Virus record (IMG/VR): IMGVR_UViG_3300036800_000157
Coordinates: 1-36,398 of that record
From: a virus
Direction: 5' to 3' (one strand)
DNA: 36,398 nt
Shown here: positions 2,726-25,649 of the stretch, piece by piece
Layout of the letters: each line of letters begins with the position of its first letter
Position numbering within the stretch: position 1 is the stretch's first letter
Translations under genes and position numbers: made by a program
Notes under the pieces: generated by a model
The model's input: only the letters and a program-made list of their open reading frames with translations
Databases searched by the model: none
What the model was told of the DNA's origin: nothing

Positions 2726-2778
2726 TGCGACACGGGTGCCGGCGCCTACTGCGAGCCGCCGAATGCTCGCTGAGCTAG
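2722..2778 (+). CDS. Possible 18-aa leader peptide before whiB
   Basis: ATG 2722 sits in an ATGA overlap with the preceding gene, and the frame ends at TAG 2776-2778, inside the start of the WhiB gene. The product (MMRHGCRRLLRAAECSLS) is Arg-rich. It is one of several very short frames in this genome that bridge two genes by overlaps, possibly carrying ribosomes to the next start. It may also be chance. Confidence 0.25.
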   Translation: MMRHGCRRLLRAAECSLS

Positions 2779-6763: not shown

Positions 6764-6894
6764 CCCTGCGGGGCTATTGGACGTGGACGGCGACGGTGTG
6801 CCGATATTGCTCGCACCGGAAGGTGCGACGCGATGACGGCTGGTGCTTGTGCCCGAACTGCGACGGGCTTGACGTGAAGCTCCCGCCGGCCTAG
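6760..6894 (+). CDS. Zinc-ribbon peptide, 44 aa
   Basis: GTG 6760 overlaps the previous stop (GTGA). The product is VTLRGYWTWTATVCRY... with Cys14-x2-Cys17 and a second knuckle WCLCPNC. Together they make a complete small zinc ribbon. TAG 6892-6894 is the stop and at the same time the first base triplet of a start-associated element. Zinc-ribbon peptides of this size near phage terminase genes are frequent and uncharacterised. Confidence 0.7.
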   Translation: MTLRGYWTWTATVCRYCSHRKVRRDDGWCLCPNCDGLDVKLPPA

Positions 6895-6915
6895 CCGGCG
6901 GGTATCCTCGCCGGC
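6892..6915 (+). promoter_or_regulatory. Start-associated element, long form, copy 1
   Basis: Begins TAGCCG and has ATC at offset 12-14. GCCGGCG (6894-6900) pairs perfectly with CGCCGGC (6909-6915) across an 8-base loop. The hairpin abuts GTG 6916, leaving no room for a Shine-Dalgarno sequence. It is 24 bases from the T to the start codon. Confidence 0.7.
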
Positions 6916-7377
6916 GTGACCGACACGCCTCGAACGATGGTGCAGCGAGCCCCCTACCCCGACATCCTCGCCGAGCTCGTCACCAAGACGACGCTTGGCA
7001 TGGACGGATCTTGGCGGGTAACCCTCGAGGACCTCAAGCGGGACGACGACCACGGCCGGGGCGAGGCCGGCGGTCTGACCCTGAAGATCCTGACCAACGG
7101 CTACGACACTTACCATCCCGACCGGGGCCAGGGCTACCGGGTGTACCACTACTTCGTGGTGCCGGCGGCCACCTACGACGAGCGCTCGTGGCGGCGCTGG
7201 CTGTTCGAGCGGTACCTCGACGTGTGGCGTCACGAGGCGATGGAGAGCTTCCGCATCGGCGACGAGCGGCCGTACGCGCCGAGCCACGGCCCCGGGAACG
7301 ACCCGTACCTGGTGCGGGAGGTCGGGACCGACCTGGATCGGCGCACCAGGTTCACTGGCGAGGTCCTCGACGGCTGA
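6916..7377 (+). CDS. Hypothetical protein between terminase and portal, 153 aa
   Basis: GTG 6916 directly follows a hairpin element, with no Shine-Dalgarno sequence. The protein is soluble and aromatic-rich (TYHPDRGQGYRVYHYFVVPAATYDERSWRRWLFERYLDVWRHEAMESF), without Cys or membrane segments. I do not recognise a domain. Its TGA shares one base with the portal ATG (TGATG), so it is coupled to portal translation. Confidence 0.7.
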   Translation: MTDTPRTMVQRAPYPDILAELVTKTTLGMDGSWRVTLEDLKRDDDHGRGEAGGLTLKILTNGYDTYHPDRGQGYRVYHYFVVPAATYDERSWRRWLFERYLDVWRHEAMESFRIGDERPYAPSHGPGNDPYLVREVGTDLDRRTRFTGEVLDG

Positions 7378-8741
7378 TGCACGTCAAGTCCGCCAGCGGC
7401 GATCTCGTCGACGTCTCCCACCGGTCGTGGCCGCTCGCCGGCACGAACTACCAGTCCGAGTACTCGCAGAGCTGGGCCGGCCTGCGCATGTCGGCCCTGC
7501 CGACCGGCGAGTCCCGGATCCTGTCGCTGCGGCGGATCTACAAAGGCAACCCGTGGGTGTGGGGGATCGTGAACATGATCGCCAACGGATTGGCGTCCTT
7601 CCCAATCCGGGTCACCGACTGGGGCCCCTCGGGTAACCGGGTCCCGGTGCGCGGCGACCTGCCCCGCACGAAGCCGGGACCGCCGAACGCCGGCCAGGTC
7701 CTCGACACCCGGCTCAACCATCCGGCCCCCTACATCTCACGCCGGCGAACGATGCGCCGCACCCAGATCGACAAGCTGGTATACGGCAATGCCTTGTGGT
7801 TGAAGGAAGCCGACGGGTACGGCGGCCTGGCCGGATTGTGGAACGTGCCGTGGCGGACGGTGTCGGCGATCGCGGGCACCGAGGTGCCGATCGTCGGGTA
7901 CCGGGCAATGGGTTTCGCCGGCACCAGGTACTTCGATCAGACCGAATGCGTCCAGTTCGGCGAGGGCGACCCCGACGCCCCGATCGCGCCGAGCCCGCTC
8001 GAGAGCCTGCAGTGGACGATCGCCCTCATGGACGCCATGTCGCGGCACCTGGTCGGGTTCTTTCAGAACTCGGCGCGCCCGTCGGGTGTGCTGAAGCTCG
8101 ACCAGATGCCCGACGACGATGACCTGGCGAAGATGCGCAAGCAGATCCGCCAGCTGTACACCGGACCGGAGAACGCCGGCGAACCGTTGATCACGTCGGG
8201 GGAGTGGTCGCCGATGAACGGCGGGGTGTCGTACTCGGATCTGGTGGAGCTGGCCAGGCTGTCCCGCGAGGAGGTGTGCGGTACTTACAATGTGCCGCCG
8301 CCGATCGCCGGGATCTTGGACAAGGCGATCAAAAGCAATGTGGAGGAGCTGCGAGAGCAGTTCCTGCGCGACGTGCTGGCCCCGGCCGGGTCGGAGACGA
8401 CCGACGAGATCGTGGCCCAGATCATCGACCCGGCACCGCAATGGTCGGGCCTGTCGTGCGGGTTCGACATGTCGGCCCGGCTGCTCCCGGATCTGGAGGC
8501 GCTGGCGATGGCCTTCAAGGAGCTGAAGCGGGTGTACACACTGAACGAACTGCGCCGGATGTCCGGGCTCGCCGACCTGGACTTCGAGTGGGCGAATCAG
8601 CCGTGGATGGAGCCGGGGTCGCTGCCGGCGGGCCTGGCCCCGCAGGGGGCGACGGTCAACCCGGACTCCGGTGAGGAGCAGGAAGAGGTCGAGGGGGTGC
8701 TGCCCGGCGACGACGAGTTCGACGAGGACCTCGCCGCCTGA
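7377..8741 (+). CDS. Portal protein (HK97-like, Phage_portal)
   Basis: Starts at ATG 7377 (TGATG) and gives 454 residues. Typical portal features are visible. There is an early segment with serial turns and NPWVWGIVNMIANGLASFPIRV (about 55-80). The core has LVYGNALWLKEADGYGGLAGLWNVPWRTV. The helical stem and clip region has LQWTIALMDAMSRHLVGFFQNSARPSGVLKL. The downstream conserved part is ARLSREEVCGTYNVPPPIAGILDKAIKSNVEELREQFLRDVLAP. The tail is acidic (EEQEEVEGVLPGDDEFDEDLAA). Twelve copies form the DNA channel at one capsid vertex. The next gene is the protease, in standard HK97 order. Confidence 0.95.
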   Translation: MHVKSASGDLVDVSHRSWPLAGTNYQSEYSQSWAGLRMSALPTGESRILSLRRIYKGNPWVWGIVNMIANGLASFPIRVTDWGPSGNRVPVRGDLPRTKPGPPNAGQVLDTRLNHPAPYISRRRTMRRTQIDKLVYGNALWLKEADGYGGLAGLWNVPWRTVSAIAGTEVPIVGYRAMGFAGTRYFDQTECVQFGEGDPDAPIAPSPLESLQWTIALMDAMSRHLVGFFQNSARPSGVLKLDQMPDDDDLAKMRKQIRQLYTGPENAGEPLITSGEWSPMNGGVSYSDLVELARLSREEVCGTYNVPPPIAGILDKAIKSNVEELREQFLRDVLAPAGSETTDEIVAQIIDPAPQWSGLSCGFDMSARLLPDLEALAMAFKELKRVYTLNELRRMSGLADLDFEWANQPWMEPGSLPAGLAPQGATVNPDSGEEQEEVEGVLPGDDEFDEDLAA

Positions 8742-8745
8742 TCTC

Positions 8746-8770
8746 TAGCCGGGCCGCATCGTGAGCGGCC
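8746..8770 (+). promoter_or_regulatory. Start-associated element, long form, copy 2
   Basis: TAGCCG, with ATC at offset 12-14. GGCCGC (8752-8757) pairs with GCGGCC (8765-8770) across 7 bases and abuts ATG 8771. The arm sequence differs from copy 1 but still pairs perfectly. It is 25 bases from the T to the start. Confidence 0.7.
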
Positions 8771-9979
8771 ATGGCCTACGCGAAGCGCCGGATCCGCATG
8801 CAGGTCCGGGCGACCCCCGACGCCGGCGAGGGCACGTTCGTGGCGAAAGTGTCGACGTACGACCTCGAGTACGACGTCGGGTGGAACTGGACCGAGGTCA
8901 TCCAGTCCGCCTGCTTCGAGGAGTCGATCGCGAAGCACCCGACGATCCCGGTGTTCTACAACCACGGGTGGGGGCTCGCCCCGGTCGGGTCCGGAAAGCC
9001 GACCGAGACGGCCAACGCTCTCACCGTCGCCGGGCGCATGTACCTCGAGATCGGCGATCCGATGGTGGCCCGGGTGTACCAGGCGATGCTCGACGAGGCG
9101 CTCGAGGAGTGGTCGATCGGGTTCTGGCCGGAGGAGATCACCTGGAATAGCGACAACCCGCTGTGCGACATCATCAGCAAGGGCGACCTGGCCGAGGCCT
9201 CGATATGTGTGAGGGGCGCCAACCCTGACACCGGCACCCTCGAGCTGAACGCGCGACGACGGGTGTGGATCGAAGGCGACGAGGCTGAGCGCGAGCGGGA
9301 GGTGTCCCGGCTGCGTTCCCGCTTCAACGTGGTCGATCTCGGCCGGCGCTCGAGCGAGATCTGCAGCTCGTGCGGGCACGAGACGCGCGGCCCGACCGGC
9401 AAGGGGGTCGACGAGGGCTCGTGGGATGGCGCGGCATCCCGGTTCTCCGACGACCAGTACAAGACGGCGTGCGCGGTGTGCCGTGGCGACGACCCTGACC
9501 ATCCCAAGCAGGACTGCTCGCTGCCACACCACGAGCCGGACGGCAAGGTGTCCCGGGCGGGGGTGCACGCCGCGGCGGGCCGGGTGAGCGGGACGTCGCT
9601 GACCGACGAGCAGAAGGCGACGGCGGCCGCCCATCTCCGCTCGCATTACAGCAAGGACCTGGAGGAGGACCCGCCGGACTCGATCAAAGCCGACGCCTTC
9701 GGGGCCCCGTCGTCGCGGGCCGGGCATTCCCACGAGCACGCCCACGGCGACGCGTCCCACTCGCACGAGCACACCCATTCCGGCGGCAACTACGACCACG
9801 GCGACAACGCGGCCGACCCCGACAACGAGGTCACCCACGACCACTCCCACGACGGGCCCGAGGGCGCACCGTCCGAGGAGGATCCGGGCCTCGACACCGA
9901 CAGCCGCGACCGGCTCTACCGGGCGCTCGGCTCCGAGCATTGGGCGCCGGTGCTCGCCGACCTGAAAGGCAACCCATGA
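8771..9979 (+). CDS. HK97-type prohead protease with long His-rich C-terminal extension
   Basis: Residues 1-160 are the U35/S78 maturation protease: strand-rich start, catalytic His65 (FYNHGWG), Ser115 (EEWSIGF) and Glu142 region (GDLAEASIC). The enzyme cleaves the capsid delta domain and itself during head maturation. The extension (about 195-402) is unusual. It carries Cys-containing CSSCGHE and the conserved module WDGAASRFSDDQYKTACAVC...KLP-like...AGVHAAAGRVSG...AAAHLRSHY, which also turns up fused to other phage head proteins. A His-rich stretch follows (319-361) with a dozen His in SHEH/HAH/HTH patterns, suggesting metal binding. ATG 8771 sits directly behind a hairpin element. The stop overlaps the next ATG. 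Confidence 0.9.
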   Translation: MAYAKRRIRMQVRATPDAGEGTFVAKVSTYDLEYDVGWNWTEVIQSACFEESIAKHPTIPVFYNHGWGLAPVGSGKPTETANALTVAGRMYLEIGDPMVARVYQAMLDEALEEWSIGFWPEEITWNSDNPLCDIISKGDLAEASICVRGANPDTGTLELNARRRVWIEGDEAEREREVSRLRSRFNVVDLGRRSSEICSSCGHETRGPTGKGVDEGSWDGAASRFSDDQYKTACAVCRGDDPDHPKQDCSLPHHEPDGKVSRAGVHAAAGRVSGTSLTDEQKATAAAHLRSHYSKDLEEDPPDSIKADAFGAPSSRAGHSHEHAHGDASHSHEHTHSGGNYDHGDNAADPDNEVTHDHSHDGPEGAPSEEDPGLDTDSRDRLYRALGSEHWAPVLADLKGNP

Positions 9980-10974
9980 CCGACGTCGAGATCCCCGGCG
10001 AACTGCTCACCCTGTCGACGTTGCGGGCCCGGGCCGGCCGGCGCTTCATCGAATCCGAGACCTACCTGAAAGCCCGGGCCTCCGGGCGGGAGGCCATGGC
10101 GCACGAGCTCGTCGCCGCCGGGCCCGTCCCGGTGCTCGACCAGCCGGAGCTGCGGGCTGCGCTCGGCCTGGTCTCCTTCGACATCGAGGGCATCCCGGTC
10201 ACCGCCGATCTACCGTCCGCGGCGCTGCTGCCCGGCATGGTCGAGACGATCCCGTTCGAGAAGCTGCAGGCCGAGCTCGCCCCTGAACTGTCCGAGACCG
10301 TGCTCGCCACCGCGGTACCGGTGGGCACGTCACTGCCGGAGGGTCAGGTCAACTACGGGCTGACCCCGACGTTGCAGCTGCTGCCCCGCTTCGGGGTCGC
10401 GTTCCCTGTCACGGTCGGCCAGCTTGACGAGCCCGGATATGTCGAGAGCATCATCAACCGGCGCATGGAGGCCGGTGTCGGGCTCGGCCTCGAGAACGAT
10501 CTGATCAACGGCAACGACTCCTGGACCGGGATCCTGGCTCTGCTGGCCGCCGGCGGCGAGACGGTGGCCAAGACGGGCGGCCAGTACCGAGTGGACGCCA
10601 TCGTTCAGGCCGCCGGTGTGGTCCACAACGCCGGCTGGTACCAGCGGCCGCTGGCCGTCGTGTGCAACCCGATCACCAGGACGGCGGTCCTGACAGAGCG
10701 GGACGGCAACACCCAGCCGCTGCCGGTGATCCACATGCTGCGCGGGCTGGTCGACACGTGGATCCCGTCGCGGTGGATGCCGCCCGGCACCGCCGTGGTC
10801 GGCGACTTCTTCTCCGCGGTGGCGCTGCTGGTGCACGGTGGCTTGGAGATCGGGGTGTCGCCGAACTACCTGGATTTCCTGTCCCGCGGCATGGTCGAGA
10901 TGGCGCTCGAGTTCCGCTGCTTCGGCTGGGTGCGCGAGCTCGGCCCCATGTGCTCGGTCACCGGGATCTCCTGA
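9976..10974 (+). CDS. HK97-fold capsid protein 1 (no delta domain)
   Basis: ATG 9976 overlaps the protease stop (ATGA), giving 332 residues. The C-terminal half follows the HK97 capsid order and resembles the next capsid gene. A VVGDFFSAVALLVHGGLEIGVS block matches ACGDFRTACRMWMRTGLSVT there, and NYLDFLSRGMVEMALEFRCFG matches EYMDFFTRGMVAILAELRAAF. The middle also aligns in layout (conserved N-L-I-N-G-N-D type A-domain helix and VCNPITRTAVL strand). It lacks the coiled-coil N-terminal scaffold domain of the second gene. It could form pentons, a minor capsid component, or be an earlier duplicate. Which of the two builds the shell cannot be read from sequence. Confidence 0.8.
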   Translation: MTDVEIPGELLTLSTLRARAGRRFIESETYLKARASGREAMAHELVAAGPVPVLDQPELRAALGLVSFDIEGIPVTADLPSAALLPGMVETIPFEKLQAELAPELSETVLATAVPVGTSLPEGQVNYGLTPTLQLLPRFGVAFPVTVGQLDEPGYVESIINRRMEAGVGLGLENDLINGNDSWTGILALLAAGGETVAKTGGQYRVDAIVQAAGVVHNAGWYQRPLAVVCNPITRTAVLTERDGNTQPLPVIHMLRGLVDTWIPSRWMPPGTAVVGDFFSAVALLVHGGLEIGVSPNYLDFLSRGMVEMALEFRCFGWVRELGPMCSVTGIS

Positions 10975-11004
10975 ACGGTCTAGCCGGCTTCGATCCTCGC
11001 CGGC
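10973..11004 (+). repeat. 32-bp direct repeat, copy A
   Basis: The 32 bases ending in GCCGGC at 11004 are identical to 14110-14141. The repeat contains a start-associated element plus the eight bases upstream of it. The two copies flank the block holding the second capsid gene, the 133-aa protein and the connector. Confidence 0.9.
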
Positions 11005-11005
11005 A
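10981..11005 (+). promoter_or_regulatory. Start-associated element, long form, copy 3
   Basis: TAGCCGGC with ATC at offset 12-14. GCCGGC (10983-10988) pairs with GCCGGC (10999-11004) across 10 bases. One base later comes ATG 11006, the start of a 13-codon frame that runs into the capsid gene. It is 25 bases from the T to that ATG. Confidence 0.7.
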
Positions 11006-11047
11006 ATGACCAGCGCCCGCGCACTTCCCTGGAGGCGACATGCCTGA
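11006..11047 (+). CDS. Possible 13-aa leader peptide before capsid protein 2
   Basis: ATG 11006 is placed against a start-associated hairpin exactly as true gene starts are. The frame (MTSARALPWRRHA) stops at 11045-11047, eight bases inside the capsid gene. A parallel 13-codon frame exists at 14142 behind the duplicate element. The capsid gene itself has its own good ribosome site, so the leader could couple or tune its translation. It may be a chance frame. Confidence 0.35.
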   Translation: MTSARALPWRRHA

Positions 11048-12506
11048 CAAGCCGACTCTCACCGTCTCCGGCGGCCGCCTTCACTGGCTGGTCGACGGCC
11101 GCCTGCTTCCCTATGTGGCGGGCGGTGAGGGTGCCACCACCACCCTCGAGGACGAGATCGTCGAGCTGCGCGCCCAGATCAAGTCGAAGGAGGAGGAGGC
11201 CGGGCGGATCAAGACGGAGGTCGACGCCGACCGCGACCGCCTGCGGGCGGAGGGCGTGAACCTGCTGACCGACAAGCGGTTCGACGAGTTCGACGCCCGC
11301 TGGAAGGAATCGGACGGCCTGAAGGCGGAGGCGTCCGACCTGCGCGGCCGCCTCGAGAAGGTCCTGACCCGCATGGCGGCCGAACGAGGCGGCGGCCGCA
11401 ACCCGCTCGCCGGCGCCGGGGACGTCCCCCTCAACCGGGCCGAGCGGCGCCAGTTCGCCGAGATCGCCAAGCGGTTCATGGGCTCCGAGCCGTACAAGCG
11501 CCTGCTCGAGAGCAACGAACTGAAAAGCCAGGGCACCCGGTTCTCGACGTCGCCGGTCGAGGTCCTCGAGCGGGGCGGCTACGACGAGGGCAGCGGCGCC
11601 CTGGACTCGCCGCTGATCCGGGCGCTGCAGACCCGGACCACGGTCAACGTCGGCGACGCCGGCGCCGTCGTGCCGATCGACCAGCAGGTGTGGCCGCCGA
11701 TCGAGATCCCGGTCCGTCAGGTGATGTTCCTGGACCTCATCCAGATGCTCACCACCGAGAGCGACATGGTCAACTACGTGCAGCAGTCGGTCCGGTCCGA
11801 CTACGCCGCGGAGACCCCCTACGGGACGGTCGCCCCCGAAGCCGACTACGAGTTCGCCCTCAAGCAGGCCAGCGTGAAGCGGCTGCCGCAGTTCATCCCG
11901 GCCACCAAGGACGTCCTCGCCGACCAGGGCGAGCTGCAGCCGCTGCTGCAGGACCAGCTGATGACCGGCGTCCGGCTGAAGCTCGAGGCGCAGACGTGGG
12001 CCGGGGCCGGCAGCTCGCCGACCGACACCCAGTTCCAGGGGGTGCTGAACGCGGCAGGGATCGGCACCGTCACCTACCAGTCGACCGGGCACACCTCCGA
12101 ATACCAGCTCGACGCCTACCACCGGGCCATGACCACCATCCGGCTGGTCCTGTTCGCGGATCCGACCGCGTTCGTGGTCTCCCCGCTCGACTACGAGTGG
12201 GCCGTCCTGAAGCGCGACGCCTACGGCCGCTACATCTTCGAGCCGAACACCGAGTCGGACATCAAGAGCCTGTGGGGGCTCACCACCGTGATCTCCCCGC
12301 TGACCGCCCAGGGCACGGCGGCGTGCGGCGATTTCCGGACCGCTTGCCGTATGTGGATGCGCACCGGCCTGTCGGTGACGGCGTCGACGGAGTACATGGA
12401 TTTCTTCACCCGGGGCATGGTGGCCATCCTGGCCGAGCTGCGGGCCGCGTTCGCCGTCGTCCAGCCCCGTGCCATCTGCGCGATCAACGGCCTCACCGGC
12501 CCGTAA
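11040..12506 (+). CDS. HK97-fold major capsid protein 2 with N-terminal delta domain
   Basis: ATG 11040 lies behind GGAGG (11031-11035). The 488-residue protein has an N-terminal coiled-coil region (about 35-120: TTLEDEIVELRAQIKSKEEEAGRIKTE...DGLKAEASDLRGRLEKVL). This is typical of the scaffolding delta domain removed by the upstream protease. The HK97 shell fold follows. The P-domain and A-domain regions run to FTRGMVAILAELRAAFAVVQPRAICAINGL at the end, matching the usual C-terminal pattern. It is the better candidate for the main shell subunit because it carries the delta domain. It is paired with a shorter homologue directly upstream (9976). Confidence 0.92.
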   Translation: MPDKPTLTVSGGRLHWLVDGRLLPYVAGGEGATTTLEDEIVELRAQIKSKEEEAGRIKTEVDADRDRLRAEGVNLLTDKRFDEFDARWKESDGLKAEASDLRGRLEKVLTRMAAERGGGRNPLAGAGDVPLNRAERRQFAEIAKRFMGSEPYKRLLESNELKSQGTRFSTSPVEVLERGGYDEGSGALDSPLIRALQTRTTVNVGDAGAVVPIDQQVWPPIEIPVRQVMFLDLIQMLTTESDMVNYVQQSVRSDYAAETPYGTVAPEADYEFALKQASVKRLPQFIPATKDVLADQGELQPLLQDQLMTGVRLKLEAQTWAGAGSSPTDTQFQGVLNAAGIGTVTYQSTGHTSEYQLDAYHRAMTTIRLVLFADPTAFVVSPLDYEWAVLKRDAYGRYIFEPNTESDIKSLWGLTTVISPLTAQGTAACGDFRTACRMWMRTGLSVTASTEYMDFFTRGMVAILAELRAAFAVVQPRAICAINGLTGP

Positions 12507-12516
12507 GGAGGATCTG

Positions 12517-12918
12517 ATGGACCGATTCGAGCGTGCCGAGCAGACCATCGTGTTCGAGCATCCGGCCCCGCCGGGACATCCCGACGACGAGCGAGCCAAC
12601 CTGAACCGTCCGGTCACGATCCTGGCCCAGCCCGGCCAGCAGCTCAACCGGGACCCGGAGTTCCTGCGGAAGAACTTCGGGATCCTCCCCGAGCACGCCC
12701 GGTTCATCACGACCTTGGCGAAGTCCCGGGCCCGGCCGCTCACCGACGACGAGAAGGCCGTCGAGCGGGCCGCCGAGGCGAAGGCCAACGTGGCGTTCGC
12801 CCCCGGCGCCGGCGTGAGCTCGGGCGGGATCAGCGCCGAGGAGGCGGCCGACCTGAAGGCCCGGGTCGCCAGGCTCGAGGAGCTCCTCGGCGCCGAGGCA
12901 CCCTCCGCCAAGAAGTAG
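12517..12918 (+). CDS. Hypothetical head protein, 133 aa
   Basis: ATG 12517 has the strongest ribosome site seen here (AAGGAGGA, 12504-12511), suggesting high expression. The N-terminal part (FERAEQTIVFEHPAPPGHPDDERANLNRPVTILAQPGQQLN) looks extended. The middle is helical (PEFLRKNFGILPEHARFITTLAKSRARPLTDDEKAVERA). The end is a short coiled coil (AADLKARVARLEELLGAE). No family is recognised. Position after the capsid and high expression suit a head accessory or decoration protein, which is inference. Confidence 0.65.
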   Translation: MDRFERAEQTIVFEHPAPPGHPDDERANLNRPVTILAQPGQQLNRDPEFLRKNFGILPEHARFITTLAKSRARPLTDDEKAVERAAEAKANVAFAPGAGVSSGGISAEEAADLKARVARLEELLGAEAPSAKK

Positions 12919-12930
12919 CCGGAGGCCCTC
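12916..12930 (+). promoter_or_regulatory. Start-associated element, short form, copy 4
   Basis: TAGCCGGAGG: the TAG is the stop of the upstream gene, and GGAGG inside the element serves as a Shine-Dalgarno sequence for GTG 12931. GGCCC (12924-12928) could pair with GGGCC (12935-12939), enclosing the start. It is 15 bases from the T to the start. Confidence 0.5.
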
Positions 12931-14106
12931 GTGCGGGCCGTCGCCGGGCAGCCGGCCACCATCCGACTTCAGGTCCAGACCGACGGCGGCACCCCGGTCG
13001 CTCCCGACGCCCTCCCGTCGGTCACCGTGTTCGCCGGCGACGGGGTCACCCAGCTCTACAGCGCGACCGGGGCGGCGGTGGGCGGGTCGACCGGGGCCTA
13101 CACGTGGGCGCTGCCACCGCAAGCCAAGCTCGACCAGCTGACCGCCATCTGGACCTACCTGGTGTCGGGGGTGGCCTACACGCAGCCGGTGACGGTCAAC
13201 GTGGTGGCCGGCCGGCTCGTGCACCCCTACACGCTGCGCCAGGCCGACACCAACCTGGCGGCCTGCACCGACGAGCAGCTGCTGTTCCTGATCGACCAGG
13301 CCGAGGACCTCGTCGAGGACGTCCTCGGCTACCCGCCGGTGCTCACCGGCGCCCGCCAAGAATGGGACGTCCTGCGCGGCACCCTCACCGACGCCCTCTA
13401 CATCTCCGGGACCGTGAACGGCCTGCCGTACGGATGGGGGGCCGGCGAGATGCTCATCCCCGGGTTCCGCTACCCGGTGGTCGGTTCCCAGCCGGCCGGG
13501 ACCGCCGCCCTGTACACATCGGTGGCGGCCGGCTCGGCAACATCGGTGCAGTTGGCCGGCAACCAGGTCGGCAAGATCGGCGCCGGCTACCTGCTCGAGA
13601 TCGGCGGCTCGGGGAGCGGCCTGGTTGCCACCACCACCAGCACCGGCACTTTCGACGGCACCAAAACCACCTACACGGTGGCGGCGCTCACCGTCCCGGT
13701 CATGATCGCTTCCGGTGGGGCGGTGCCGTGGTCAGGTCCGCCGTCGGGCGCCGGGGCCGTGTATGCCGGCAGCATAAACGGGGTCGCCCTCGACCCGGTT
13801 GCGGACATCCCCATGCTGCGCGTCCTCGACGGCGCCCTGGCCTGGGCGGACTACCGGCCGTGGATCTCCGGCCGCTACCAGATGTGGTTCACCCACGGCG
13901 CCATCAACCCGCCGGCCGACCTGCGCGCCGCCACCCAGAAACTGATATCGCACGCCGCCAAAGTGTCGAACTACCCCGAGCGCGCCGCCCAGGTGATCAC
14001 GGAGGGCGCCACCATCCTGTTCTCGCTGCCGTCCCCGGACCGACCCACCGGGCTGCCCGAAGTGGACGCAGTCCTTGTGCGCCGGCGCACCCAGTCGGAG
14101 ATCTGA
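12931..14106 (+). CDS. Head-tail connector with N-terminal Ig-like domain
   Basis: GTG 12931 gives 391 residues. Residues about 1-95 form an Ig-like beta domain (VAGQPATIRLQVQTDGGTPVAPDALPSVTVF...TWTYLVSGVAYTQPVTVNVV). From about 97 comes the connector pattern YTLRQADTNLAACTDEQLLFLIDQAEDLVEDVLGYP, the helical start typical of gp6/Ad1-like adaptors that dock under the portal. A Ser/Thr/Gly-rich beta insertion (about 195-255) interrupts it. The C-terminal helices (DLRAATQKLISHAAKVSNYPERAAQVITEGATILFSL) complete it. The fusion of an Ig-like domain to an adaptor is less usual; such domains on phage particles often aid surface attachment. Confidence 0.8.
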   Translation: MRAVAGQPATIRLQVQTDGGTPVAPDALPSVTVFAGDGVTQLYSATGAAVGGSTGAYTWALPPQAKLDQLTAIWTYLVSGVAYTQPVTVNVVAGRLVHPYTLRQADTNLAACTDEQLLFLIDQAEDLVEDVLGYPPVLTGARQEWDVLRGTLTDALYISGTVNGLPYGWGAGEMLIPGFRYPVVGSQPAGTAALYTSVAAGSATSVQLAGNQVGKIGAGYLLEIGGSGSGLVATTTSTGTFDGTKTTYTVAALTVPVMIASGGAVPWSGPPSGAGAVYAGSINGVALDPVADIPMLRVLDGALAWADYRPWISGRYQMWFTHGAINPPADLRAATQKLISHAAKVSNYPERAAQVITEGATILFSLPSPDRPTGLPEVDAVLVRRRTQSEI

Positions 14107-14109
14107 GCC

Positions 14110-14141
14110 GAACGGTCTAGCCGGCTTCGATCCTCGCCGGC
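14110..14141 (+). repeat. 32-bp direct repeat, copy B
   Basis: Identical to 10973-11004. Perfect identity over 32 bases, while other start-associated copies differ, suggests either a recent duplication or recombination, or strong sequence constraint at these two sites. Confidence 0.9.
14118..14141 (+). promoter_or_regulatory. Start-associated element, long form, copy 5
   Basis: TAGCCGGC with ATC at offset 12-14 and paired GCCGGC arms (14120-14125 and 14136-14141). It abuts GTG 14142, which opens a 13-codon frame running into the next gene. It is 24 bases from the T to the GTG. Confidence 0.7.
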
Positions 14142-14183
14142 GTGAGCGCAACCTGCCGAAAGGACCGCCGCTGTGGCCGATGA
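14142..14183 (+). CDS. Possible 13-aa leader peptide
   Basis: GTG 14142 lies directly behind the element, and the frame (VSATCRKDRRCGR) ends at 14181-14183, 11 bases inside the following gene. It mirrors the leader before the capsid gene in length, position and Arg content, though not in sequence. It could equally be coincidental, because the downstream gene has its own AAAGGA site. Confidence 0.35.
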   Translation: MSATCRKDRRCGR

Positions 14184-16246: not shown

Positions 16247-16728
16247 TGGCCACCAGGATCGTCATCACACGCGACGGCCGCGACCCCGTCGAGGTCGACC
16301 CCTCGGCGCCGTGGTCGGCGCGCGAGCAGGTCGACTGGGAGCAGCAGTTCAAGTCCAGCTTCGTCACCGTCTTCCAAGCCGTCGGCAAGGACATGGCCAG
16401 CTCCGCTGCGGCGCTGAAGGCGGCCGGCAAGGACGACGACCAGGAAGTGGACTTCGACGAGCTCGAGGCCGCCGACGCCCCGCCGATCTGCTTCCAGGTG
16501 ACGTGGATGCTGTTCTTCGCCTGGCACCGCCTCCGGGCCTCCGGCGACGCCCCAGCCAAGTTCGACACCTTCCTCAACACCATCGACTACGACTTCGTCC
16601 GCCAGCCCGACCCTGAGCCGGCCGCAGAGCCCGCCCAGGTCGCCCAGGAGCCGCTTGCGGCACCGGCGGAGCAGGATGGGAGCCTGGGCCCTACCCAGCC
16701 GATCCCAGAGCCGGCCCCGGCCCCGTAG
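16246..16728 (+). CDS. Tail assembly chaperone (gpG-like)
   Basis: ATG 16246 (TGATG), 160 residues. The core (EQVDWEQQFKSSFVTVFQAVGKDMASSAAALKAAGK...ICFQVTWMLFFAWHRLRASGDAPAKFDTFLNTID) is the helical domain typical of chaperones placed between major tail and tape measure genes. A Pro/Ala/Glu-rich tail follows. In many long-tailed phages the ribosome slips -1 near the end of this gene to make a longer gpGT-like product. A GGGCCCT slippery heptamer in the right phase lies at 16686-16692. A -1 slip there opens directly into the next gene. Confidence 0.85.
   Translation: MATRIVITRDGRDPVEVDPSAPWSAREQVDWEQQFKSSFVTVFQAVGKDMASSAAALKAAGKDDDQEVDFDELEAADAPPICFQVTWMLFFAWHRLRASGDAPAKFDTFLNTIDYDFVRQPDPEPAAEPAQVAQEPLAAPAEQDGSLGPTQPIPEPAPAP
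16686..16692 (+). other. Candidate -1 programmed frameshift site
   Basis: G GGC CCT matches the X XXY YYZ pattern in the chaperone's own frame. After slipping, the -1 frame is open from 16692 to TGA 16965-16967, giving a fusion of about 240 residues (149 zero-frame codons plus 91 codons). A translational frameshift at this position is widely conserved in long-tailed phages. Confidence 0.55.
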
Positions 16729-16736
16729 CCGCCCTC
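16726..16736 (+). promoter_or_regulatory. Start-associated element, short form, copy 6
   Basis: TAGCCGCCCTC followed by GTG 16737, 11 bases from the T; TAG is the chaperone stop. It shares the CCCTCGTG ending with copy 4. If the -1 frameshift is used instead, this may be only a remnant or chance match. Confidence 0.4.
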
Positions 16737-16967: not shown

Positions 16968-17386
16968 TGCCCGTCCGCATCACCGGGCTGAAGGAGCTCC
17001 GGGCCGAACTGCGCGCCGCGGCCGACGCCAGCCCACGGGAGGTGACCGCCGCCTTGCGCGAAGGGGCGAAGACGGTGGCGGCCAGATCCAACGAGCTCGC
17101 CCCGCAGGGCAAGACGGGGGCGTTGAAGGCCGACGGGCGACCGTTCGCAACCGGCACCCGGGCCGGGGTGCGCTACCGGTTGCCGTACGCCGGGGTGCAG
17201 GAGTTCGCCGTCAACTGGTCCCGCCGCAACCGCACCGGCAAGGGCACCAACGAGGTGCATTACACCAAAGGCGGTCCGCCGCCCCGGTTCGCCTATAGGT
17301 CGGTCGACGAGCTCGGGCCCGGGCTCCTCGACGCCACCTTCGAGCGGATCACCAACATTCTGCGCTGCCACGGGTGGTTCCGGTGA
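16967..17386 (+). CDS. HK97 gp10-like head-tail joining protein
   Basis: ATG 16967 (TGATG), 139 residues. The sequence VRITGLKELRAELRAAADASPREVTAALREGAKTVAARSNELAPQGKTGALKADGRPFATGTRAGVRYRLPYAGVQEF follows the HK97-gp10 family. It has an N-terminal helix pair, then the APxxTGxL turn, then the strand before the aromatic PYAxxxEF. The family forms part of the neck or tail completion. In most genomes it precedes the major tail protein. Here it lies after the chaperone and before the tape measure, so the neck genes appear rearranged. The stop overlaps the tape measure GTG. Confidence 0.8.
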   Translation: MPVRITGLKELRAELRAAADASPREVTAALREGAKTVAARSNELAPQGKTGALKADGRPFATGTRAGVRYRLPYAGVQEFAVNWSRRNRTGKGTNEVHYTKGGPPPRFAYRSVDELGPGLLDATFERITNILRCHGWFR

Positions 17387-20259: not shown

Positions 20260-22205
20260 GCCTGCCGCAGCTGTCGGTCCGCGTCGCGTTCGCGTCGAAC
20301 CCGTACGACCCGACGCTCACATGGACCGAGATCGGGCCGGCGTCGGGTGCCGGCCCGGGCGGGTCGGGGTGGGTGCGCCAGGTGAAGTCGAAGCGTGGCC
20401 GGGAGCGGTTGCTGCGGTCGCAAGCGCAGTTCCAGGCGGGCACGGCGACGGTGACGTTGGACGGCCGGGACCGGCGGTTCGATCCGACCAACTCGGCCGG
20501 CCCTTACTGGCCGAATGTGCAACCGGAGAAGGTGATCCAGGTGGGTGCGACCTGGGCGGGCACGTTCTATCCGTTGTGGACCGGCTATGTGGATGATTGG
20601 CCGCAGAACTGGCCGGGGTTCTCGGAGGGCGAGGTCCCGTTGGTGGCGACCGACCTGTTCAAAGCGTTGGCCGCGGCGCGGGTCCTCTCGTCGGGCTATC
20701 CCAACCAGGTGATCGCCGACGGGGCCGTCGCCTACTGGCGCCTTGGAGAGCCGGCCGGCGCGACCATCGCCGCCGACGCGTCGGGGAACGGACACACCGG
20801 CACGGTCAACCCCTCGGTCGTGACCTTCGGCCAGAGCGGCGCCTTGCCAGCCGACCCGACAACGAGCGCACAGTTCGTCGGCGGACCGATAGGGCCGGCC
20901 GGGTCCGGCATCACCGCGCCAGCCGGAGTGCCATCGGGTTCCCCCGGGGTGTCGATCGAATACTGGTACAAGTCCAGTGACACCAGCGCCAACCACCTCA
21001 CCCACACCAGCGTGATCGCGACGCTCGGCGGCACCCAGTTCTCATTCAAACTGTACGTAATCGGGCCGCCTGTGCAGGCCCAGCTGCTCATCAACGGCAA
21101 CGGCGCCGGCTTCGGCCCGACCGTGACCAGAGCTCTCAACGACGGCAACCGGCACCATCTCGTCGGGACTGTGGTGGCCGCCACCGGCGGGTCCGTCGGC
21201 ACTTGCTGTCTCTATATGGACGGGACGCTCGCCGCCACAACCGGGGGCGGGTCAGGCGGTGGCGTCGAGCCATGGCAGGGCATCTTCGACATCAACGCCA
21301 CCTCCGGCCAGGGCGCCGACATACAGGAGGTGGCCGTCTACCCGGTCGCGCTCACCGCCGCCCAGGTCGCCAACCACTACAACCTGGCCGCGTTCCGCTC
21401 CCAGCAAACCGGCCAGATGGTCTCCCAAGTCATGGAGAACCTGCTCGCCTACCCGGCCCGGCTCCTCAACATCGACACCGGCCACACCCTCTGCCAACAG
21501 GACACCCAATCCGAGGTCCAAACCAAAGTCCTCGACTTCCTGCAAAAGCTTGAGCAGACCGAGCAAGGCCAGTGCTACGTGAACGCCGCCGGCGTCCTCA
21601 CCTTCGAGGACCGCTACCACCGCTACCGCTACCCCGAGCTCGCCTCGCTCGCATCGCTCGGCGACGGCGGCGCCAGCTACCCCGCCGAGATCGCCTACGC
21701 CATGGGAGGGCTCACCCTCAACTTCGACCGGGCCGAACTGTGGAACGACGTTGCCGTCACCCGCCGCAACGGGAACCTCCAGGAGGCCGCCAACGCCACC
21801 TCGGTCACCAAGTTCGGGAATCGCGCCATGCAGGGCCTCTCCGACCTGCTCATGGAAACCGACCTGGACGCCCTGTACTGCGCCGAGTGGATCCTGGCCG
21901 ACACCGCCTTCCCGCAATACCGGGTCGGCAACCTGACGATAGATCCCCGAGTCGACGACCGGTGGTGGCCGATCGTGCTCGGCCTCGACATCGGCCAGGT
22001 TGTCACCACCATCAAACACAACATCCCTGGCGGCGGCCCGCCCGTCGACCTCGTCGTCCGGCTGGAAGGCGTCGAGCACGAGATCACCCCGCCGAACGGC
22101 TGGCTGACCACGTGGCATGTGTCGTTGACGGGCACCAACCCGTGGCTGATCCTCGACGACCCGATTCTCGACCAGCTCGACGTCGGCAACCGCTGGGGCT
22201 GGTAA
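20256..22205 (+). CDS. Minor tail/tail-tip protein with LamG/ConA-like domain
   Basis: ATG 20256 overlaps the tape measure stop (ATGA), 649 residues. Residues 1-145 resemble a distal-tail N-domain (SVRVAFASNPYDPTLTWTEI...ATVTLDGRDRRFDPTNSAGPYWPNVQP...PLWTGYVDDWP). A lectin-like jelly roll (about 152-385) follows: AYWRLGEPAGATIAADASGNGHTGTV, GVSIEYWYKSSD, QEVAVYPVALTAAQVANHYNLA. The remainder continues the tail protein. Such domains bind sugars, so it may aid cell-surface attachment. Codon bias changes inside the gene: G-ending codons before about 20.75 kb, C-ending after. This suggests that the lectin domain and what follows were joined on from another phage. Confidence 0.8.
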   Translation: MSLPQLSVRVAFASNPYDPTLTWTEIGPASGAGPGGSGWVRQVKSKRGRERLLRSQAQFQAGTATVTLDGRDRRFDPTNSAGPYWPNVQPEKVIQVGATWAGTFYPLWTGYVDDWPQNWPGFSEGEVPLVATDLFKALAAARVLSSGYPNQVIADGAVAYWRLGEPAGATIAADASGNGHTGTVNPSVVTFGQSGALPADPTTSAQFVGGPIGPAGSGITAPAGVPSGSPGVSIEYWYKSSDTSANHLTHTSVIATLGGTQFSFKLYVIGPPVQAQLLINGNGAGFGPTVTRALNDGNRHHLVGTVVAATGGSVGTCCLYMDGTLAATTGGGSGGGVEPWQGIFDINATSGQGADIQEVAVYPVALTAAQVANHYNLAAFRSQQTGQMVSQVMENLLAYPARLLNIDTGHTLCQQDTQSEVQTKVLDFLQKLEQTEQGQCYVNAAGVLTFEDRYHRYRYPELASLASLGDGGASYPAEIAYAMGGLTLNFDRAELWNDVAVTRRNGNLQEAANATSVTKFGNRAMQGLSDLLMETDLDALYCAEWILADTAFPQYRVGNLTIDPRVDDRWWPIVLGLDIGQVVTTIKHNIPGGGPPVDLVVRLEGVEHEITPPNGWLTTWHVSLTGTNPWLILDDPILDQLDVGNRWGW

Positions 22206-22209
22206 ACCG

Positions 22210-22219
22210 TATCTAGATA
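22210..22219. repeat. AT-rich perfect palindrome TATCTAGATA
   Basis: A 10-bp perfect palindrome in the 34-base gap after the tail-tip gene and just before a start-associated element. It stands out in an otherwise GC-rich late region and could be an operator. Confidence 0.5.
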
Positions 22220-22224
22220 GCCTC

Positions 22225-22239
22225 TAGCCGGCGGTCACC
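22225..22239 (+). promoter_or_regulatory. Start-associated element, short form, copy 7
   Basis: TAGCCGGCGG lies 15 bases before GTG 22240. GCCGGCG (22227-22233) could also pair with CGCCGGC (22257-22263) further on, enclosing the start codon in a 23-base loop. Confidence 0.5.
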
Positions 22240-22713
22240 GTGAACGGCGTGATCATCGCCGGCGAGGACCGTTACACGCCTGCCCGGGACCGCCCCGACC
22301 ACACGGCTGCCGAGGCGGTCGTGTGGCGTCACTGGCGCCACCATCCCGGCACGGTGCCCGCCCCCCTCGTAGGCCAGCTCCGCGGGGAGTGGCCCACCGG
22401 CGCCCATCCCACTGTGACGTCGGCGGCCCGGGTCGACCATGGCCGCTGGCTGGTCGACTGCCCCTGGCCGGGCTGCAACAGCAGCCAGTACGCCTCCCGG
22501 CTCGACCACCGGTTCTTCTGTGTCGACGGACCCCACGACGGGCATTTCGCCTGGATTCCCGTCGTGTGGCCCACCGACGTGGAGATGGCCACCATCGAGG
22601 CTGTCCTCGACGCCCGCCCGGAGCCGGCCACCCGCAACTGGGCGCCGGGCGAGCCGATCAACCAGCTGGTCGCCGAGAACGCCGGCCACGACCTGCCGCC
22701 GGCGGCCCCGTGA
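22240..22713 (+). CDS. Conserved-looking zinc-finger-type phage protein, 157 aa
   Basis: GTG 22240 follows a start-associated element. A Cys cluster in the middle (Cys74-PWPG-Cys79...RFFCVDG, Cys94, then His99/His102) looks like a degenerate zinc finger. The pattern GRWLVDCPWPGCNSSQYASRLDHRFFCVD resembles an uncharacterised actinophage family near tail genes. The C-terminus is Pro-rich. Function is unknown. The stop overlaps GTG 22710. Confidence 0.6.
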   Translation: MNGVIIAGEDRYTPARDRPDHTAAEAVVWRHWRHHPGTVPAPLVGQLRGEWPTGAHPTVTSAARVDHGRWLVDCPWPGCNSSQYASRLDHRFFCVDGPHDGHFAWIPVVWPTDVEMATIEAVLDARPEPATRNWAPGEPINQLVAENAGHDLPPAAP

Positions 22714-23096
22714 GCTGGACCTCGCCGAAGACGTGGGCGGTCGGCGACCCCGCCACATCAGCCGACCTCAACACTTACCTCCGGGACAACCCCAGCTATC
22801 TCTACGGCGACACCACCTGGACGGCGATCACGGCGTTCACGAACGGTTGGGGGGCTTCCGGCACGCCGCCGGGCTATATCCGGGAGGGGAACGTGATCAG
22901 GATGCGCGGGGCCCTGTCGGCCGGGACGGCTGGGAGCGCAGCCTTCACGTTGCCGTATGGGCCTTCCGAGAACGGCCACTTCGCTGCGACCAACGGAGCC
23001 ACATCCGTGGATGTTGCGGTGACAGCGGCGGGCGTGGTCACACCGGGCACCTCGACAACGGTGTGGCTGTCCGGCCTCACCTTCTCCATCATCTGA
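22710..23096 (+). CDS. Tail fibre/baseplate-associated protein, 128 aa
   Basis: GTG 22710 overlaps the previous stop (GTGA). It opens with SWTSPKTWAVGDPATSADLNTYLRDNPSYLYGD. This is the widespread start of phage tail-fibre or particle-associated proteins (the TW-x-V-G-D...LN-x-x-x-RDN pattern). It then has alternating strands (GYIREGNVIRMRGALSAGTAGSAAFTLPYG...VAVTAAGVVTPGTSTTVWLSGLTFSII). It is probably a small trimeric tail-tip protein; the exact role is unknown. Confidence 0.7.
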   Translation: MSWTSPKTWAVGDPATSADLNTYLRDNPSYLYGDTTWTAITAFTNGWGASGTPPGYIREGNVIRMRGALSAGTAGSAAFTLPYGPSENGHFAATNGATSVDVAVTAAGVVTPGTSTTVWLSGLTFSII

Positions 23097-23105
23097 GGTG
23101 GACCG

Positions 23106-23930
23106 ATGACCATCAGCATGGCCGACTCCGTCAACCCTCAGGCCCTGCTCGGCTTACCGAGCTACATCACCGCCTTCGCCGGCTACGACGACGGCAACTG
23201 GCCCGACTACCAGGCCATCGCCAACGCCCACCCCGGGGCGCACCTTGTCGAGCTCACCGTGTGGCTCGCCAACCGCGGCCTCGGGCTCGACGTCGAACCC
23301 GGTGATGCCACCATCACCCAGGCACCCGTCTACGTCACCGAACGCCACCAGGCCGGCATCACCCTTCCGGTCGTGTATTGCCCCGCCTCATGGTCCCAAC
23401 AGGTCCTCGACGCCATCGCCGCCGCCGGCATCCCCCGCAGCTCGTGGCGGCTCCTGTCCGCCCACTACGGGATCGGCCAGCACATCTGCGGGCCCGGTGC
23501 CTGCCAATACCCCCAAGCGGACGGCACCCAGTGGATCGATCACGGCACCTGGGACGAATCCCTCCTCTCCGACGACTTCTTCACCGCCAGCCTGCCTGCA
23601 CCGCCCAAGCCCGCCCAGCTTCCTCAGCCACCGTCGCGCAACTACCCGGGAGACAACACCATGAAGGCCTACCCGATCAACGGGTTCACGACCGACGACG
23701 CCGGCTGGTACGCCGCAGACGTCGTCCTCGACGCCGGGTCAACCCCCCACGACATCGTCAACGTCCGTTGCGACTGGGCGTCGGGGTACGACCGGCAGGG
23801 CTGGCACGCCTGCGACGCCTCCGTCGACTTCGCTTCCGGCGCCCCGCAGCCAAACGTCGCCCGAATCGTGTTCCACTCCCTCGTCCCGAAAGACTCGTTC
23901 ACAGCCACCGTGTGGGTAGCCGCCCCGTGA
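23106..23930 (+). CDS. GH25-like glycosidase-fold protein (candidate endolysin or tail lysin)
   Basis: ATG 23106 follows GAGGTGGA. Residues about 15-160 match an actinobacterial GH25-like domain: YITAFAGYDDGNWPDYQAI, HLVELTVWLANRGLGLDVEPGDAT, then APVYVTERHQAGITLPVVYC and IDHGTWDESLL. The LDVEPGD block (Asp62, Glu64) sits where GH25 muramidases keep their acidic catalytic pair. A Pro-rich linker (164-178) joins a beta-rich C-terminal domain (185-274), perhaps a wall-binding unit. If active, it would cut peptidoglycan for lysis or entry. It is the only lysin candidate I see, and it lies beside the membrane-protein cluster, which suits an endolysin. No amidase or peptidase is visible. Confidence 0.65.
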   Translation: MTISMADSVNPQALLGLPSYITAFAGYDDGNWPDYQAIANAHPGAHLVELTVWLANRGLGLDVEPGDATITQAPVYVTERHQAGITLPVVYCPASWSQQVLDAIAAAGIPRSSWRLLSAHYGIGQHICGPGACQYPQADGTQWIDHGTWDESLLSDDFFTASLPAPPKPAQLPQPPSRNYPGDNTMKAYPINGFTTDDAGWYAADVVLDAGSTPHDIVNVRCDWASGYDRQGWHACDASVDFASGAPQPNVARIVFHSLVPKDSFTATVWVAAP

Positions 23931-23956
23931 TGCCAGGCCAAGGGCGGTGACCGTCG

Positions 23957-24298
23957 TTGACCGACCCGTGGTCGCTGCTGGCACCGATCCTCGCCGGTTA
24001 CGTGGCGATCGCCGGGGCGATCGTCGGCTTCCTGATCCGCGAGATCGGCACGGCCCGCAAGGCGGTGGCGGACATGACCGACAAGATGATCACCCAGGTG
24101 ATCCCGGCGCTGGAGCGCTCGACCGCGGCCGGCCAGGCGGTGATCCCAGTGCTGGACCGCGACGCGGCGGCGATGGGGGCCATGGTCGAAGCGACCGGCA
24201 GACTGCTCGACACAACCAACGAACTGCAGAAGCTGCTCGCAGTGCTATCCGACCGGCAGGCCAGGACCCCGCCGACACGGCCGAGAAGGGCCGAGTGA
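23957..24298 (+). CDS. Small membrane protein with coiled region, 113 aa
   Basis: The best start is TTG 23957 (AAGGGCGG about ten bases upstream). The overlapping frame from GTG 23947 codes only for Arg/Asp-rich shadow sequence. Residues about 5-27 (WSLLAPILAGYVAIAGAIVGFLIREIG) form one transmembrane helix, and the rest is helical. This could be a holin or antiholin. The stop overlaps the next ATG (TGATG). Confidence 0.6.
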   Translation: MTDPWSLLAPILAGYVAIAGAIVGFLIREIGTARKAVADMTDKMITQVIPALERSTAAGQAVIPVLDRDAAAMGAMVEATGRLLDTTNELQKLLAVLSDRQARTPPTRPRRAE

Positions 24299-24477
24299 TG
24301 CGCAACCCGCTAGGCCGCCTCGCCGACGACCGGCAGCGCCTCGCCCAAGTGGAAGAGCGCCTCGACCGCCACATCGCCGAGGTGAACGTCACCAACCGGG
24401 CGGTGATGACCGCTGTCGTCAGGATCCAGACCGAGCTCGACGAGCGCAGGCACACGACCGAGGGGGGGACGCAGTGA
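24298..24477 (+). CDS. Coiled-coil peptide, 59 aa
   Basis: ATG 24298 (TGATG) to TGA 24475-24477, which overlaps the next GTG. It is highly charged and helical (RLADDRQRLAQVEERLDRHIAEVNVTNRAVMTAVVRIQTELDERR) with heptad spacing and no membrane segment. It may partner the flanking membrane proteins. No family is recognised. Confidence 0.6.
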   Translation: MRNPLGRLADDRQRLAQVEERLDRHIAEVNVTNRAVMTAVVRIQTELDERRHTTEGGTQ

Positions 24478-25049
24478 CAGTCGCACCGGACGACGGGACA
24501 ACGCTGAGCGACGACACTTCCATCGACCACCTCGCCGATGGGCTCAAGGATTACGCGGAGGCGGCCCGAGAGCTGGCCCGCCGGCTACCGACGAGGAAGA
24601 CGGCCCATATCTTGGTGGTCGTCGCGGTGGCCGCCCTGATCGCCGCGGTCGGGTCTGGGGTCGGTGTGTGGCTGATCCGCGACACCCAGCTCTCGAGCGT
24701 CAAAACCTCCCACAGTCAGCAGACAGAGGCCGGCACCGTCAAAGCCCAGGCGGGAACGCTCAACGCCCAGGCGGCGACGATCGCGGCGCAGGCCCGACAG
24801 ATCGCCGCCCAGTCCGCCCAGCTGGCCCGCCAGGAGCGGTTCGACGAGATCCTCGGCGGGTTCCTGATCGAGGTGCTTTCGCAGCCGGGTGAACATCTCA
24901 CCCCCGCCGAGCAGGCCACCAAAGCTCAGATCCAGCGGTTCCTGGCGGCCACACCCACCCCGGCCGCCACCCGGCCGGCGCCGCCGTCGACGACGGTCCC
25001 GCACCGGGTCGCAACGCCACCGGCTCCGGCGAGCCCCCCTTTACGGTGA
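24474..25049 (+). CDS. Membrane-anchored coiled-coil protein, 191 aa (lysis-region)
   Basis: GTG 24474 (GTGA overlap). Layout: soluble N-terminus, one transmembrane helix (about 44-67: AHILVVVAVAALIAAVGSGVGVWLI), a Gln/Ala-rich coiled coil (about 80-125: KAQAGTLNAQAATIAAQARQIAAQSAQLARQ), then a Pro/Thr-rich disordered tail. The topology puts the long coil outside the membrane. This resembles a spanin-like or holin-accessory layout, though spanins are not expected in a single-membrane host. The role is uncertain. Confidence 0.65.
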   Translation: MTVAPDDGTTLSDDTSIDHLADGLKDYAEAARELARRLPTRKTAHILVVVAVAALIAAVGSGVGVWLIRDTQLSSVKTSHSQQTEAGTVKAQAGTLNAQAATIAAQARQIAAQSAQLARQERFDEILGGFLIEVLSQPGEHLTPAEQATKAQIQRFLAATPTPAATRPAPPSTTVPHRVATPPAPASPPLR

Positions 25050-25050
25050 C

Positions 25051-25069
25051 GCCCGGCCGCAAGCCGGGC
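25051..25069 (+). terminator. GC-rich hairpin after the 191-aa gene
   Basis: GCCCGGC (25051-25057) pairs perfectly with GCCGGGC (25063-25069) around a 5-base loop, one base after the stop. There is no T-run, so it is more likely an mRNA-stabilising or translation-uncoupling structure than a classic intrinsic terminator. Confidence 0.35.
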
Positions 25070-25110
25070 CGCCAGCGCCCGCATCACACACCGACACGGC
25101 GCCACCAGAA

Positions 25111-25269
25111 ATGAGCCTGCTCCACCACCATCGCCCGGAGCAACCGTTCGAGGAGCGGCCGCCCGACGAGCCCGAGCATGTCGCCGATCTGCGAGCCGAG
25201 AACCGTCAGCTGCGGGTCGAATTGCGCCGCCAACTGAGGGAAGCCACCTCGAGAGCCGGCCGCCGGTGA
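25111..25269 (+). CDS. Charged small protein, 52 aa
   Basis: ATG 25111 to TGA 25267-25269, overlapping the next GTG. The first half is His/Pro/Glu-rich, and the second is a short coiled coil (HVADLRAENRQLRVELRRQLREA). The ribosome site is weak. The overlap with the next gene and the heptad pattern are the support. Unknown function. Confidence 0.5.
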   Translation: MSLLHHHRPEQPFEERPPDEPEHVADLRAENRQLRVELRRQLREATSRAGRR

Positions 25270-25628
25270 GCGTCCCGCTGCGCCATCACGCCACCCATCT
25301 CGCCCGCGGGCTCGCACTCGGGCTCCTGGTTGCAGCGGTCGTGATCGGCGGCGTCCTCGCCGTCTTCCTTGCCGTGTTCGGCTGGGCCCGGTTCGTGGCC
25401 GACTTCTGGCCGCTCGACAACTCCCGGATCGGGCCGAACCTGTGCGCGTCGATCGTGATCGTGGTGCTCGTCACCGGCCACAACGAGTACCGCACCGCAG
25501 TGCGAGCCGTCGAAGCCGGCGAACGGTTACGTCAGGTCGGCCGGGATCTCGAGGCGGAGGTGCTGCACCCTGCGGAGACCGCCGAAGCCCACGTGGCCGA
25601 CGACGTCGACCAGCAGGCGACGCCCTAG
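25266..25628 (+). CDS. Two-helix membrane protein (holin candidate), 120 aa
   Basis: GTG 25266 (GTGA overlap). Residues about 15-45 (GLALGLLVAAVVIGGVLAVFLAVFGWARFV) and about 57-72 (NLCASIVIVVLVTG) are hydrophobic and could form two membrane spans. A charged soluble tail follows (RTAVRAVEAGERLRQVGRDLEAEV). The size and topology suit a class II holin. Its stop TAG is part of a start-associated element. Confidence 0.6.
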   Translation: MSVPLRHHATHLARGLALGLLVAAVVIGGVLAVFLAVFGWARFVADFWPLDNSRIGPNLCASIVIVVLVTGHNEYRTAVRAVEAGERLRQVGRDLEAEVLHPAETAEAHVADDVDQQATP

Positions 25629-25649
25629 CCGCCCGGGATCATCCCGGCC
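25626..25649 (+). promoter_or_regulatory. Start-associated element, long form, copy 8
   Basis: TAGCCG with ATC at offset 12-14. CCGGG (25633-25637) pairs with CCCGG (25643-25647), two bases before ATG 25650. It is 24 bases from the T to the start. The arms differ from all other copies. Confidence 0.7.

Follow-up and report, generated by a model that had tools for sequence, protein, structure and literature searches.

The phage genome analyzed here carries a repeated, strand-specific element placed at a fixed distance before start codons, and its copies are most likely phage-specific promoters rather than RNA hairpins. The element is real and is wider in extent than had been apparent from this one stretch of DNA alone (hereafter the window, a 36,398-bp IMG/VR virus record with 69% GC). 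We estimate a probability of roughly three in four that it represents a promoter family producing leaderless and leaderless-coupled mRNAs for virion genes, a reading based on sequence comparisons. The original prediction, drawn from the letters of the window, had described a repeated, oriented, start-associated control element in late genes, and this core is borne out by the window and by its relatives.

Searches against Pfam and PHROGs indicated that the window derives from an HK97-type siphovirus, with the following landmark genes:

4833-6488: terminase large subunit gene
within 7011-8741: portal gene
start at 17374: tape measure gene
29667-30644, minus strand: integrase gene

We compared the window with four IMG/VR contigs that present close portal and capsid matches (G2, 3300047163_000118; G3, 3300037840_000167; G4, 3300014153_000001; G5, 3300037069_001223) and with a prophage of Acidiferrimicrobium sp. 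IK, class Acidimicrobiia. The portal and capsid proteins of these relatives share 59-83% identity with their window counterparts, and the six genomes amount to 192 kb in total, most of the records being metagenomic contigs or fragments. Together they constitute a limited group of temperate siphoviruses with hosts in Acidimicrobiia, and the related prophage (G001:C23, ~169-205 kb; L017, L029-L032) makes this class the likely host class of the window phage as well, the hosts being relatives of Acidiferrimicrobium that live in soil or water. Megablast and tblastn searches of GenBank phages returned no near relative. An exact 25-mer of the element had no match in IMG/VR, and a narrower form of its consensus had a single match there, a relative already in the set. 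Two distant portal relatives (L014, 54% GC; L015, 52% GC) presented no clustered element. At both ends of the window (1-426 and 36218-36398), the DNA codes for repeats resembling AYRDANKAEIAEK or matches one and the same region in relatives, so that the record may be a near-complete genome broken inside one repetitive gene. The window also encodes a ParB-like protein (ParB_N and HTH_ParB; 31487-32902) with homologues in the prophage and G4, and an HNH endonuclease (3667-4020) located between an HTH gene and the terminase genes and kept in relatives.

The pattern CTAG-n9-AYnnT matched the window exactly seven times, always on the plus strand. It is this longer pattern that exceeds chance, with shuffles averaging 1.04 matches and none of 100 reaching seven. 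When the pattern was further constrained to be preceded by C or T and followed by ATG or GTG (RTG) 6-8 nt past its last T, the seven observed copies compared with 0.022 expected. Each copy is listed from its CTAG:

3034-3051, plus strand: copy 1 (CTAGGGCGCTGTCACCGT), in the 3'-terminal part of whiB; GTG 3059 opens a BldC-like HTH gene
6891-6908, plus strand: copy 2; GTG 6916 opens a 153-aa ORF (phrog_1540) without Shine-Dalgarno
8745-8762, plus strand: copy 3; the prohead protease gene (PF04586) begins at ATG 8771 and has no Shine-Dalgarno
10980-10997, plus strand: copy 4; ATG 11006 opens a 13-codon uORF before the major capsid gene
14117-14134, plus strand: copy 5; GTG 14142 opens a 13-codon uORF before a tail gene
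22224-22241, plus strand: copy 6; GTG 22249 opens a 154-aa ORF without Shine-Dalgarno
25625-25642, plus strand: copy 7; ATG 25650 opens a 169-aa ORF that includes a hydrophobic stretch and has no Shine-Dalgarno

Copy 1 had been overlooked because it reads CTAGGG. An ATG at 3053, following this copy, overlaps the whiB stop, and orthologues of the copy precede the same HTH gene in G2, G4 and the prophage. The original prediction was built on eight TAGCCG strings, all of which are present on the plus strand where they had been placed, but only six of them belong to the element. At 12916 the TAG is a gene's stop codon, with a G before it and a GGAGG Shine-Dalgarno after it, and a relative has no element at that place; the string at 16726 likewise reads GTAG, and neither of the two has a right box. 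The string at 22225, classified as a short copy, is a long one with its GTG at 22249, and the RTGs that follow 10980 and 14117 are not main-gene starts but open uORFs, the main genes starting at 11040 and 14173. Bare TAGCCG is common in the window (13 on the plus strand and 15 on the minus strand), the additional plus-strand occurrences being at 1212, 2899, 23917, 30457 and 34095. We also considered the TAG as a stop codon and rejected this idea: 25626 and 12916 are the only two that fall at plausible gene ends.

We further analyzed the conservation of the element in the six genomes. The consensus obtained from the relatives is GCTCTAGCCG-n6-SAYNMT, followed by 6-8 nt and then ATG or GTG; across the six genomes the consensus reads GCTCTAGCCGSCNNSSAYNMTS, and upstream of it no conservation is seen at the place expected for a -35 box. 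The pattern YCTAG-n9-AYnnT has 41 matches on the gene strand and none on the opposite strand. All 41 forward matches present the 9-nt spacing, other spacings yielding 0-2 matches on either strand, and the original prediction was right in describing an ATC-like box at fixed spacing. An RTG lies 6, 7 or 8 nt past the last T in 40 of the 41 elements. When any base was allowed after the A, we obtained 48 forward and 3 reverse matches, 46 of the forward ones with an RTG. Shuffles yielded 1.67 elements (0.15 with an RTG) on the plus strand of the six genomes together. The right box begins with C or G in almost every copy (T in 1 of 39). The element precedes the protease and capsid genes in all six genomes and is also found before a tail gene; it precedes the BldC-like HTH gene in the four genomes that cover this region. 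Four genomes carry it directly before the portal gene, and the window and G2 carry it before the gene preceding portal. We give no overall P value because orthologous sites are not independent counts. CTAG itself is about five-fold depleted in the six phage genomes (118 observed and ~570 expected), and approximately 40% of the remaining CTAG fall in the element.

Across the six genomes, 31 of the 46 element-linked RTGs open a long ORF, although one of these is cut short by the end of its contig, with only 8 codons open. As had been anticipated from the lack of room for one, no Shine-Dalgarno was found at 29 of the 31 long-ORF starts. The other 15 RTGs open an ORF of 6-24 codons, and one of the corresponding elements (G2, 14520) probably matches by chance. 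For each of the remaining 14, a main gene with its own start is found 26-71 nt downstream; in 13 of them, the short ORF stops at a position from -10 to +9 nt relative to that start, and in the last at -13. Exactly one of the three frames would reach the main start in 12 of the 14 cases, and the RTG uses that frame. The window contains two such ORFs:

11006-11047, plus strand: capsid-leader leaderless uORF (MTSARALPWRRHA), whose stop overlaps the capsid start at 11040
14142-14183, plus strand: tail-leader leaderless uORF (MSATCRKDRRCGR), whose stop overlaps the tail gene start at 14173

The capsid and tail genes each possess their own Shine-Dalgarno. Capsid-gene uORFs of other sequence are present in G2, G3, G5 and the prophage, and equivalents of the tail-gene uORF in G2, G3, G4, G5 and the prophage. 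The uORF peptides are not conserved between relatives, so it seems that the coupling, and not the peptide, is kept. In the same region, the adjacent ORFs 9940-10974 and 11040-12506 both match the capsid family PF05065 (E = 8e-8 and 1e-27, respectively), and it is possible that a second capsid-like protein is encoded beside the major one.

The element is specific to the phages. In the Acidiferrimicrobium assembly (5.1 Mb), 8 of the 11 pattern matches fall in a 22-kb prophage stretch, all on one strand; the rest of the assembly contains 3 matches against 14 for a reversed control pattern. Across 296 Acidimicrobiia genomes, element matches were no more frequent than those of the control pattern. 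A host promoter was therefore rejected, the element being missing from the host chromosome and from the class. TANNNT located ~12 bp before the start is a sign of leaderless genes in Actinobacteria (PMC3160421). In agreement with this, 25 of ~43 TANNNT occurrences counted over 31 distances cluster 6-9 nt ahead of candidate RTG starts in a 400-kb portion of the Acidiferrimicrobium chromosome, and SAYNNT presents no such peak there. The right box of the phage element ends 6-8 nt before the RTG, which is the site of the host leaderless -10 box. The element thus looks like a promoter with an altered -10 box and an extra GCTCTAG ~26 bp before the start.

The invariant CTAG and A...T, the rigid spacing and the fixed distance to the RTG fit a DNA promoter element, and the RNA-level reading first proposed finds no support. 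Our model is as follows. The right box S-A-Y-N-N-T would stand in for the -10 box, and the left box GCTCTAG, ~26 bp before the start codon, would lie in what would otherwise be the spacer; a -35 box is lacking. The first base of the transcript would be that of the ATG or GTG located 6-8 nt downstream, or would lie no more than two bases away from it, which would make the mRNA leaderless. This RTG is the gene's own start in about two thirds of the cases. For the remaining third, mainly capsid and tail genes, it opens a frame of 6-24 codons ending at a gene start led by a Shine-Dalgarno, and this short frame would pass ribosomes to the main gene by translational coupling. A phage factor, possibly a sigma-region-4-binding WhiB-like protein and/or a BldC-like HTH protein, would direct the host RNA polymerase to the element. 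Promoter activity and the transcription start point are predicted from sequence, and late timing is suggested by the genes served.

Two neighboring genes encode the candidate factors:

2736-3056, plus strand: phage WhiB-like gene (PF02467), start codon uncertain; candidate co-activator
3059-3463, plus strand: gene for an HTH_17 (BldC-like winged HTH) and four-cysteine (zinc-ribbon-like) protein; candidate activator with its own element

The WhiB-like gene, with the HTH gene directly after it, lies upstream of the terminase genes in the four genomes that cover this region, and in each of them the element before the HTH gene falls inside the 3' end of whiB. The HTH protein had no match among GenBank phages. 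We obtained an AlphaFold model for this protein (pLDDT 82, pTM 0.38), and its seven best PDB matches are all Streptomyces BldC (best E = 1.4e-3); excisionases share the HTH_17 fold, Pukovnik Xis being found at rank 10 of the structural matches. The model displays a long C-terminal helix, and the BldC type is a MerR-like winged HTH without a coiled-coil dimerization domain. BldC is known to bind direct repeats as head-to-tail multimers (PMC5859096). The position of the two genes and their autoregulatory layout suggest that the WhiB and BldC-like proteins might act at the element. We tentatively envision that WhiB on sigma region 4 and the BldC-like HTH on the spacer CTAG redirect the polymerase of the host so that it uses a new class of promoter (CTAG-n9-AYNMT-6-8 nt-start), which drives leaderless or leaderless-coupled virion genes and autoregulates the HTH gene; this detailed scheme is possible but rather doubtful. 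A phage-encoded alternative sigma factor was rejected, as neither the phage records nor the prophage had a match to Sigma70 region 2.

Alternatively, the copies could be asymmetric phage-repressor sites similar to the stoperators of mycobacteriophage L5, which would silence the prophage rather than start transcription. These phages are temperate (integrase at 29667-30644), and the single orientation, the many sites, the short gaps and the asymmetric sequence all resemble published stoperators (PMC9283540). However, no fixed RTG distance has been reported for stoperators, and here 40 of 41 elements lie at 6-8 nt; the frames of the coupled uORFs are conserved, and the element coincides exactly in position with the leaderless -10 box. 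This makes stoperators an unlikely explanation. The consensus of L5 stoperators is a 13-bp GGTGGMTGTCAAG-like sequence, and it has five two-mismatch matches in the window, none of them at an element copy.

It is less likely still that the element is a start-associated translation signal, comparable to the SAS of cluster K mycobacteriophages, on a leadered mRNA transcribed from farther upstream. Both occur in many copies on one strand just before starts, and the function of SAS is likewise not established (PMC3203893). But the element has no Shine-Dalgarno-like core of the GGGATAGGAGCCC kind, its two boxes keep a rigid 9-nt spacing, and its RTG distance is that of host leaderless -10 boxes. The window has no match to GGGATAGGAGCCC with up to two mismatches, in agreement with the original view that the two sequences differ.

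A promoter for a phage-encoded single-subunit RNA polymerase appears very improbable. The element is compact (22 bp), repeated and phage-only, as such a promoter would be, but PF00940 had no match in four genomes (a search in which the positive control was silent too) and no unassigned ORF of polymerase length was noted in the gene lists, which contain only tape-measure, tail and ParB-like ORFs.

Finally, an RNA hairpin in a 5' leader, acting as a translational operator, a processing site or a ribosome-entry structure, is the least probable of these explanations. Some window copies do form strong hairpins (6891, 10980 and 14117), and the window arms present a mean z of -1.7 over six copies, two of which are identical. 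In contrast, the 33 copies in relatives average -5.2 kcal/mol (control, -4.6; random genomic 25-mers, -5.0) with a mean z of -0.2, so that the hairpin is not a conserved feature. The covariation of the arms initially described was not recovered: the arms fail to pair in homologues, a condition that the original prediction had itself set for its refutation, and no pairing register exceeds shuffled partners. In addition, the conserved letters (CTAG and A...T) are not the paired arms, and Rfam had no match in the window.

Reading the element as a promoter has several implications. Among the regulators of actinobacteriophages, WhiB proteins are the most frequent (PMC8612146). In the present case, a WhiB of the phage and a BldC-like protein adjoin a defined, repeated, phage-only element, and the role of a phage WhiB could be directly tested with a reporter. 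Our results also suggest that a phage has come to rely on leaderless starts for expressing its virion genes, with tiny coupled frames placed ahead of the capsid and tail genes. The element additionally provides a marker for recognizing phages of the poorly sampled class Acidimicrobiia.

The late promoters of T4 and the early promoters of phiC31 are also repeated, phage-specific promoters that need phage factors. The element would resemble them in that one sequence is repeated over one temporal class and recognized with phage help, but factors and sequences differ, and a leaderless design with coupled uORFs is, to our knowledge, not found in either system. We also know of no promoter class that a CTAG at such a position would fit. 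L5 stoperators share the asymmetric, oriented and repeated organization with short gaps but differ in sequence, and only the element presents a rigid link to the RTG and a right box at -10 (PMC9283540). The SAS and ESAS of cluster K phages are likewise present next to starts in numerous copies with a strand bias, within a single group of phages, and ESAS contain putative promoters (PMC3203893, PMC11373665); these phages also encode WhiB, often with HTH_17 proteins near it (PMC8612146). However, SAS have another sequence, which resembles a Shine-Dalgarno when the phage element does not, and ESAS possess 17-bp inverted repeats and SigA-like -35 and -10 boxes that are absent here: upstream of the element we found no conserved letters, and no pairing in relatives. 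The uORFs end at the start of the next gene as do the leaderless RTGA-coupled small ORFs known in mycobacteria (PMC4633059). In position, the element resembles the leaderless promoters of Actinobacteria, which also place a -10-like box ~12 bp before an RTG without Shine-Dalgarno (PMC3160421). Their box is TANNNT, whereas the right box of the phages is SAYNNT, with the first T missing, and the phage element further differs by its invariant CTAG 9 nt upstream, its restriction to phages and the use of one element per gene class.
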